A DNA stretch of 33,958 nt from Clostridia bacterium (lineage in GTDB: Bacteria > Bacillota > Clostridia > Christensenellales > CAG-917): positions 24,552-58,509 of the forward strand of contig JAQUST010000009.1 in the NCBI GenBank assembly GCA_028710495.1, read 5' to 3'. Under the pieces are notes generated by a model that was not told the DNA's origin, did no database searches, and saw only the letters and a program-made list of their open reading frames with translations. Made by a program: the position numbers and the translations under genes. Position 1 is the first letter of the stretch, and every line of letters starts with the position of its first letter. Below are positions 3,010 to 26,785 of the stretch, piece by piece.

Positions 3010-4305
3010 CTATTTATCAATTTTCATTTGCCATTTTGAAATAGCGTCCTCATCATATTCGGTCGGGATTTTTTCTGCAATATGAACTTTCGCCCAAGCA
3101 TTTGAGACAAGGGAGTTCAACTTGAGCAGCCAAGGCATTTTCTTCCAGCCGATTTTAAGTTTTGCAGGAATGTCAGACGGTGAAATAGCAATAAGCTTGC
3201 CGATAGATGCGCCCGCCATATCTTCAGCTGAAACAATTCCCGAACCGAAGAGCCACGCAATCAAATCATCAGAGAAATCGAGGATACCGTTTTTAAGAAC
3301 TTCGATACCGCAATGTTGTGCGCCAAATTCTTTGAAAACTCTTATTTGATATTTCCAAAGAGATTTTGCGCTCATATCTTTTGCGCAACTCACAACATCT
3401 GCCAAAATCAAAGCGGAAAGCATAGCAGGCACCATACCGGAGCCAAGCATAGGAATAGTCATAAAAGCAGAATCGCCGATTGCAACATAGCCGTCTGCAA
3501 CCATTTTGGAAAGCGGTCTGCGAACGGGGATTTTGCAAACGAATCCACCTCGAGCAATTTTGTCACCAAGCCACGGATTTTTGTTTCGTAAATCTGTGAT
3601 AGCTTCATTGAAGTTTTCATCGGAAAGCGAGCCAACATGTCCGACAAGCACATCAACCAACTTTGGGTTGTGGTCAAGAGCGCACCAAGATATACCTTGT
3701 TTGCCGAGATGCTTCATATAGACGCGGTGAGTATAAGGTTCTTCAACAGGGGCATTTTCAATGCGATTGAAATAGCCTCGAAATGCGTAAAAAATCTCGT
3801 TATCTTTTGGCTGTGTTTCAATGCCGAGGTCTTTCGGCAGCATAGTGCGAAGTGCAGAAAATGCTCCGAGACTGTCTATTAACAGGTCGCAAAGTTCTTG
3901 TTGTCCGTCGACAACGCAGCCGACGACTTTTTTCCCTTCCAAAATAGGTTTTTCAACGATTTTTCCGAAATGAATATTAGCAACTGCTTTTGCCTTTTCG
4001 TAAAGAAGAGCATTTAACGGTCTGCGCTCAATAGACATATCCCGCTTGCTATCACCAATAGGAAGGAAAAGTATGGATTTTTCAAAAGGAGCAACAAATG
4101 TCCAATCGGGCTTTGCAAAATTTTCTTTGGGTGGTGTGAGTCCCAGCTTTTCAAAGATGTCAGGAGTCAAGTCATCGTGCCAGTCATAGCGCATATTTTC
4201 AATCGATGTTTCTTTTTCGTAGACGTCCACAGTGTGTCCTAATTCGCCCAATTTCCAAGCGGCAACCAAACCGCCCATACCTGCTCCGGCAACTATAATT
4301 CTCAT
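3010..4305 (-). CDS. FAD-dependent oxidoreductase, geranylgeranyl-reductase-like
   Basis: N-terminal Rossmann motif MRIIVAGAGMGGLVAAWKLGELGHTVDVYEKE and GYVAIGDSAFMTIPMLGSGMVPAM. Confidence 0.8.
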   Translation of the reverse strand: MRIIVAGAGMGGLVAAWKLGELGHTVDVYEKETSIENMRYDWHDDLTPDIFEKLGLTPPKENFAKPDWTFVAPFEKSILFLPIGDSKRDMSIERRPLNALLYEKAKAVANIHFGKIVEKPILEGKKVVGCVVDGQQELCDLLIDSLGAFSALRTMLPKDLGIETQPKDNEIFYAFRGYFNRIENAPVEEPYTHRVYMKHLGKQGISWCALDHNPKLVDVLVGHVGSLSDENFNEAITDLRNKNPWLGDKIARGGFVCKIPVRRPLSKMVADGYVAIGDSAFMTIPMLGSGMVPAMLSALILADVVSCAKDMSAKSLWKYQIRVFKEFGAQHCGIEVLKNGILDFSDDLIAWLFGSGIVSAEDMAGASIGKLIAISPSDIPAKLKIGWKKMPWLLKLNSLVSNAWAKVHIAEKIPTEYDEDAISKWQMKIDK

Positions 4306-26147: not shown

Positions 26148-26187
26148 AACGGTTACAAATTAAAAAATGAAGATGAAATGGAATGCA

Positions 26188-26243
26188 ATAGAAGTTCAAA
26201 TTTGAATGAAATAGAAGTTCAAATTTGAATGAAATAGAAGTTG
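26188..26243. repeat. 23-bp tandem repeat (~2.5 copies) containing a perfect 12-bp palindrome
   Basis: atagaagttcaaatttgaatgaa at 26188 and 26211, partial at 26234; TTCAAATTTGAA is self-complementary. Confidence 0.92.
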
Positions 26244-26354
26244 AAACGGTGTGCAGTTTTAGAATCTAAAAAACTATTATAGTTTCTTATAGTATGTATT
26301 AAGCAAAGACTCAAAAAATGATGGAATAAATCTCATTTACGATTTTACTGAGAA

Positions 26355-26447
26355 AACAAAAAACACCGCACAACGATTGAACGTTGTATCCGTCCCCGAA
26401 GGTAAACGAATCCAAAGCGGTGTTTCCGAAGAAGCAAAAACCTCTTC
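26355..26447 (-). ncRNA. Candidate structured small RNA, copy A
   Basis: Minus strand: TATAAT (26455-26460) then hairpin GAAGAGG-tttttG-CCTTCTTC-type, outer stem AACACCGC/GCGGTGTT (26362-26369/26417-26424) plus T-run; inner hairpin with C(UUCG)G loop. Confidence 0.6.
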
Positions 26448-26504
26448 TAATACTATTATATTACAAAAAATGATGGAATAAATCTCATTTATGCTATTAT
26501 ACCA

Positions 26505-26588
26505 AAAATAAAAAACCGCCGCGTGTCCGTCCCCGTAGGTAAACGAAAAAATAGAGACGGTTTCAAAGAAGCAAAAACTTCTTCTAAT
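26505..26588 (-). ncRNA. Candidate structured small RNA, copy B (tandem paralogue of copy A)
   Basis: Same architecture: TATAAT on minus strand, AAGAAG/CTTCTT hairpin, outer stem AAACCGTC/GGCGGTTT (26556-26563/26513-26520) plus TTTTTTATTTTT; inner hairpin with C(UACG)G loop. Confidence 0.6.
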
Positions 26589-26785
26589 ACTATTATATTA
26601 CAAAAAATGAAAAGTCAATATCTAATGATAAAAAATTATCTGTTTCTAAAACTTCTACAAAATTCAATATGTTGTGGATATGTTGATTTTTTGCCCCAAA
26701 GCGGGCTGTTCTCAAAAGATTTAGTGAAATTCGCTTTACAAAATTGAAATAATAGATAATAATAATTGAGCGCATCAAGCGCGCA

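Follow-up and report, generated by a model that had tools for sequence, protein, structure and literature searches.

Two tandem structured RNA modules lie on the minus strand of a 33,958-nucleotide stretch of contig JAQUST010000009.1 (assembly GCA_028710495.1, positions 24,552 to 58,509 of the forward strand; hereafter the window) from a Clostridia bacterium of the order Christensenellales, whose genome as analyzed here comprises 1.57 Mb in 39 contigs. Both modules lie upstream of the gene rpsF (Ribosomal_S6); they were delimited by folding and a stem scan and are referred to as copy B (26505-26586) and copy A (26355-26449). Both carry a 5′ hairpin with a U-loop, an outer stem (P1) and, inside it, a stem P2 with a UNCG loop, the outer stems being AACACCGC/GCGGTGTT and AAACCGTC/GGCGGTTT. 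In copy B, the 5′ hairpin occupies approximately 26585-26565, the arms of P1 lie at 26564-26556 and 26520-26512, and P2, with a UACG loop, is followed by a T-run, with no further stem P3. In copy A, the 5′ hairpin (approximately 26447-26428) precedes P1 (26427-26417 with 26369-26359), which encloses P2 (26411-26406 with 26393-26388, capped by a UUCG tetraloop) and P3 (26387-26382 with 26375-26370), and a T-run follows. A scripted promoter scan located a minus-strand promoter for copy B at 26592-26618, i.e., TTGACT at 26618-26613 and TATAAT at 26597-26592 separated by a short spacer of 15 nt. For copy A, the stem and promoter scans identified a minus-strand –10 box, TATAAT, at 26455-26460, and the scan upstream of this box found no convincing –35 element.

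A preliminary description of the window had proposed two such modules within a duplication, and the repeat search and folding found them where it had placed them, with TATAAT, 5′ hairpins, outer stems, UUCG or UACG loops and T-runs in both modules and an additional ACAACG/CGTTGT hairpin in copy A. Its assignment of the modules to the minus strand was favored by folding: the minus-strand z-scores were –4.8 for copy A (0 of 200 shuffles as good) and –2.3 for copy B (3 of 200), compared to –3.8 and –0.5, respectively, for the plus strand. It had recognized no RNA family, and in Rfam release 15 no family matched the modules at gathering thresholds, permissive matches all being sub-threshold; the likeness it had suggested to glnA/Downstream-peptide RNAs likewise found no Rfam match. 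The duplication of about 150 bp is seen as two pairs of repeats, one of 88 nt at 85% identity (26386-26473 and 26523-26610) and one of 53 nt at 83% identity (26312-26364, with aaaaaatgatggaataaatctcattta, and 26464-26516), the latter including a 27-nt block. This block, present at 26314-26340, flanks copy A on both sides and, read along the minus strand, the downstream one has no module behind it; it is possibly the relic of a third unit. Just past the RNA copies, at 26176-26246, are three tandem 23-nt repeats bearing a perfect palindrome, TTCAAATTTGAA.

The preliminary description had missed the partner gene of the RNA: on the plus strand, both modules read as degenerate coding sequence from the tail of a gene with the LPD3 domain (PF18798). 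A DNA search of the window genome recovered a third copy of the RNA elsewhere, with 96% identity over the aligned stretch, to which copy A is identical over approximately 69 nt. An intact open reading frame (ORF) of 313 aa contains this third copy on its opposite strand; the ORF matches LPD3 with 36.4 bits against a Pfam cut-off of 27 and is the only intact LPD3 gene in the genome. In the window, a degenerate LPD3 tail fragment on the plus strand at 26293-26481 (G000:C7:50844-51032) corresponds to residues 158-220 of the protein encoded by that ORF and contains a stop (tblastn E=3.9e-16, 63% identity). A second, frameshifted plus-strand fragment at 26570-26665 (G000:C7:51121-51216) corresponds to residues 205-236 (tblastn E=0.00245), its DNA alignment to the intact gene region covering 138 nt at 83%. 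The two window modules form an orphan, possibly decaying array of LPD3 type beside an LPD3 pseudogene fragment; their probable origin is a decayed pair of LPD3 gene and RNA that was duplicated as the unit of about 150 bp. Inspection of the ORFs around the window region and around the intact LPD3 gene revealed no phage neighborhood. An exact-motif search of genome contigs gave three matches in apparently unrelated coding sequence, which were taken as chance.

The same arrangement was found in other genomes. At four loci from two other genera (L019, L020, L021 and L023), the RNA is situated at or past the stop codon of the LPD3 gene; its fold has a z-score of –3.6 to –5.1 in L019, L020 and L023, and a weaker one of –1.9 in L021. 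In G030, from another genus of the same family, two LPD3 remnants stop at a TAA just ahead of the hairpin, and at both loci a perfect TTGACA-N17-TATAAT lies directly upstream of the hairpin on the opposite strand; one of these RNAs adjoins a minor-tail-like gene. Two further genomes (G023 and G025) have a convergent RNA behind their LPD3 genes, with the same layout and a different sequence. The antisense unit recurs in other families, at LPD3 loci found by the PF18798 model alone; there it is situated at the C-terminal edge of LPD3, including cases in which the domain is embedded in an ORF of 1802-3227 aa. Most neighbors of the cassettes of family f1 had no PHROG or Pfam match, and a prophage setting is likely for these cassettes.

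A tblastn search of phages, plasmids and viral contigs with the LPD3 genes gave no match, LPD3 being too diverged, and of two alignments intended for searching, one was too diverse to use and the other returned nothing; a different LPD3 query matched 32 phage records. The human faecal phage record MT838554 contains a single ORF with three LPD3 domains, each with an antisense promoter and RNA of its own. In Pseudomonas phage Epa33 (L116), LPD3 is part of an 11.4-kb structural gene and the domain ends at position 3327; behind it, on the minus strand, is a candidate RNA with a 13-bp P1-like inverted repeat, GTCTCCTGAACTG/CGGTTCAGGAGAT, and a T-rich tail, for which the promoter scan found no good sigma70 promoter.

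A second type of RNA accompanies a second domain. Proteins in G027, G018 and G014 begin with the same N-terminus as the protein beside the G025 RNA but have other C-termini. The C-terminus in G027 is PBECR1 (PF18809; 50.6 bits, cut-off 27.6), and behind it is a convergent RNA with the promoter style of the LPD3 type and a different body. In G018 and G014, the C-terminus has no Pfam match above cut-off and is followed by an ORF of 66-67 aa, with no RNA directly behind it; this ORF may be a protein immunity gene, and such cassettes (L033, 1501-2136, plus strand; L034, 1653-1019, minus strand) are candidates for a new toxin-immunity pair. A convergent RNA is present at all six PBECR1 loci over the cut-off in the order. 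Conversely, when IMG/VR was searched by the PBECR1-type RNA motif alone, all six viral contigs recovered (L076-L081; three distinct loci) had a convergent PBECR1 gene, one locus having four diverged RNA units behind a single promoter. In Campylobacter phage PP935708 (L083, minus strand; PBECR1 domain end at 3315), a candidate RNA recognized by eye has the P1/P2/P3 layout, with P1 as GAUAAAA/UUUUAUC, P2 as GGUUAG/CUAACC and a loop complementarity CCGA/UCGG. Profile comparison of LPD3 with PBECR1 gave a probability of at most 30%, and a structural model of PBECR1 was of too poor a quality to be used. Judged across the loci compared, the type of the RNA follows the type of the putative toxin domain.

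Promoters were counted if they were antisense, lay within 300 nt of the domain end and had at least 10 of 12 matches with a spacing of 16-18. In a set of loci of which some are interrelated, the domain ends are approximate and L019-L023 had been found by a query covering the RNA region, such a sigma70-type promoter was present at 16 of 20 LPD3 loci and 10 of 15 PBECR1 loci. The expectation from dinucleotide shuffles was 0.92 in 35, the sense strand gave 1 in 35, and the ends of other ORFs (at least 150 aa) gave 0 in 35. Under a stem test that asked for a P1 of at least 9 bp plus a T-run within 220 nt, the LPD3 loci scored 18 of 22 in antisense and 4 of 22 in sense, with 1.3 expected, and control ORF ends scored 1 of 55 in antisense. 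The PBECR1 units scored 5 of 17 in this test because most of them end in a separate terminator hairpin.

The RNA body measures approximately 60-105 nt, P1 enclosing P2 and P3, and is completed by an intrinsic terminator. Covariation was calculated on sequences hand-trimmed at the outer stem, a step that favors P1: in 12 distinct PBECR1-type units, 94.3% of cells were paired, compared to approximately 40-49% when the alignment was slid, and 12 of 16 pairs had changed on both sides, with a covariation of 0.704 (0.24 shuffled, 0.07-0.15 slid). The corresponding values in a four-sequence subset of the LPD3 type were 100% of cells paired (28-59% slid), 9 of 14 pairs changed on both sides and a covariation of 0.881 (0.37 shuffled, 0-0.26 slid). 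A complementarity between the P2 loop and the P3 loop keeps a constant position in the 12 PBECR1-type units while its letters vary (CCGC/GCGG, CGCC/GGCG, CCGCGC/GCGCGG, CUGCC/GGCAG and CGCU/AGCG); within individual units, it does not reach significance against loop shuffles. The covariation of the outer stems that the preliminary description had read from copies A and B depends on a gapped alignment, the arms being shifted by 2 bases, and two sequences were insufficient to establish it; the later homologues prove it. Its broader proposal, that two tandem copies of a structured RNA outside the known families lie on the minus strand, is likewise supported, the homologues having consensus promoters and compensatory changes.

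RNA units were also found away from intact partners. Among 327 genomes of the order, a PBECR1-type covariance model gave 18 matches, distributed over 14 genomes; the window genome had none. Five of these matches have an intact PBECR1 partner and one a decayed copy, the rest having no partner detectable by profiles; the partnerless matches include tandem arrays. Arrays hold one to four tandem units, and in G025:C50 (L101, approximately 1485-1760) the order is PBECR1-type, LPD3-type, PBECR1-type, with no detectable toxin gene adjoining. One of the weakest matches, L109, resembles coding sequence and may be false. Four matches of the model lie in other families (L106, L107, L108 and L110), three of them with a common variant core, GACATACAGAAAATCGCAT; no PBECR1 neighbor was found for these four.

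We consider it fairly probable, from these sequence comparisons, that the window modules represent orphans of an RNA gene normally paired with a phage toxin-like domain, and that the RNA serves as a type III-like immunity. The RNA gene itself is well supported: the predicted gene, its promoter, its covarying structure, its fixed position, the matching of types, the arrays and the orphans can all be read from the DNA. One half of the unit would be a protein domain, either LPD3 or PBECR1 (a predicted RNase), that ends a phage gene or is contained in a large polyvalent protein, and the other half a convergent RNA gene at the 3′ edge of the domain, with its own sigma70-type promoter and intrinsic terminator, the PBECR1-type body adding a putative P2-loop/P3-loop pseudoknot. 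We infer that the RNA is transcribed in vivo, that the domain is toxic and delivered with virions, and that the RNA has a neutralizing role. In a cell carrying the element, the RNA would be transcribed from its own promoter, fold, bind the cognate toxin domain and block it, so that the carrier would be shielded both from leaky toxin expression and from toxin delivered by related phages. Units are duplicated, diversified and retained as orphans in the manner of immunity genes. Fixed position, type matching, structural conservation, arrays and orphan retention are as expected of a protein-binding, protein-blocking RNA of type III-like kind.

Several observations weigh against this interpretation. 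Two weak LPD3-like matches (L027 and L030) are without an RNA unit, the PBECR1 loci of Helicobacter phages show no clear unit, and the Campylobacter candidate is only weak. LPD3 has no assigned function, and its AlphaFold model (predicted local distance difference test score, pLDDT, of 89) has no significant PDB match (E<=0.001), two chains of contact-dependent inhibition (CDI) toxins (6vek and 6cp8) appearing only at a weak E=0.25-0.3; the activity of PBECR1 is predicted only. The promoters of the window copies look degraded, with the 15-nt spacing in copy B and the poor –35 region in copy A, and from these features, activity of either copy on its own is doubtful. In addition, antisense control is a possible function, since the RNA and the toxin transcript come from opposite strands.

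In that case the RNA would be a type I-like antisense regulator, pairing with the toxin mRNA in its 3′ portion, or acting through transcription interference, to hold toxin expression down while leaving the protein untouched. It is always opposite the toxin gene, overlaps the stop codon or the coding sequence and has a strong promoter, all of which suits such a regulator; an antisense RNA has no need, however, of a fold conserved by compensatory change despite sequence drift, of diverged units, even of the other type, multiplied in one transcript, or of units kept without a toxin gene, and we regard this explanation as unlikely. We give still less credence to a cofactor, guide or packaged RNA, i.e., one that binds the protein to activate it, guide it or travel in the particle. 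That RNA type and domain type go closely together indicates joint working and leaves its sense unspecified, but toxin-less orphans and mixed arrays better suit immunity, and the equivalent slot in G014 and G018 holds a small ORF.

The plus-strand homology of the window to LPD3 protein could also mean that the modules are only a degenerate, tandem-duplicated LPD3 fragment, the RNA features being chance on the reverse strand of coding sequence, where TATAAT complements codons for Thr-Ile-Ile. This pseudogene-only explanation was dropped and is very improbable: at the four loci from two other genera, where the RNA is at or past the stop codon, consensus promoters and the fold persist past the end of the LPD3 frame, and the same features recur in unrelated LPD3 and PBECR1 loci of other sequence, far over controls and with compensatory changes. 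That the hairpins are palindromic and placed at gene ends would fit a bidirectional terminator or another cis-element of phage operons with no separate RNA, a reading that is hardly credible given promoters with 10-12 of 12 matches facing inward at a fixed distance, units deep within ORFs, and P2, P3 and loop complementarities that exceed a terminator. Insertion of a mobile palindromic element of the RPE-like kind was rejected, as the LPD3 tails of relatives align across the region and the RNA sequence is wholly different between loci at the equal position.

The favored type III-like system resembles the known type III toxin–antitoxin (TA) systems (ToxIN, CptIN and TenpIN; also AvcID) in combining a protein toxin, here with PBECR1 as a predicted RNase, with a structured RNA, and in having pseudoknot-like units (with the complementarity of single units here not significant) in tandem on one transcript. 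It differs in that the RNA is convergent or antisense with its own promoter, rather than upstream in a shared operon, is often embedded within the toxin ORF, and has no Rfam match; Pfam scans of the partners showed LPD3 or PBECR1 and no ToxN-type (ToxN/CptN/TenpN) domain. In type I TA systems such as txpA/RatA and bsrG/SR4, a convergent antisense RNA overlaps the 3′ end of the toxin gene. The RNAs described here share that overlap, and complementarity to the toxin mRNA exists by position; their partners, by contrast, are folded domains of approximately 110-140 aa (LPD3 or PBECR1) and not small hydrophobic peptides, their fold is kept by covariation, and they form arrays and orphans. The MuF polymorphic toxins of phages (PMC5576092) and the polyvalent proteins (PMC5512222) are similar in that a phage-borne protein combines several domains, its toxin domains (PBECR and LPD3 among them) can be exchanged, and immunity is expected adjoining the toxin. 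PBECR domains are predicted RNases of phage conflict proteins and LPD3 is listed without function (PMC5512222). Small putative immunity ORFs lie downstream of MuF toxins (PMC5576092), whereas the slot here is taken by an RNA with its own promoter; a term search of both papers found no small, noncoding or antisense RNA as immunity.

A literature search in which most subscription papers lay outside reach, so that an earlier description may exist, found no paper connecting an RNA with LPD3, PBECR or polyvalent toxins. Protein-RNA TA pairs are already known; as far as the literature found goes, what is new is the pairing of LPD3 and PBECR1 with RNA, the convergent or embedded-antisense architecture and the link to polyvalent toxins, and there is a real chance that specialists would call these RNAs a new class. 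More tentatively, phages of several bacterial phyla may use RNA genes as immunity to exchangeable toxin domains, with the antitoxin RNA encoded on the opposite strand, even within the ORF of a giant virion protein; toxin and antidote would then move as one piece of DNA, and mixed orphan arrays on chromosomes would be immunity repertoires. Both LPD3 and PBECR1 recur in the polyvalent proteins of phages and conjugative elements, and a conserved RNA partner offers a handle on their function, suggesting that they are toxins and predicting an antidote. The immunity slot of phage toxins may hold an RNA, which surveys for small downstream ORFs alone would overlook, and a gene inside another on the opposite strand, moving with one protein domain, would represent an unusual form of modular evolution.
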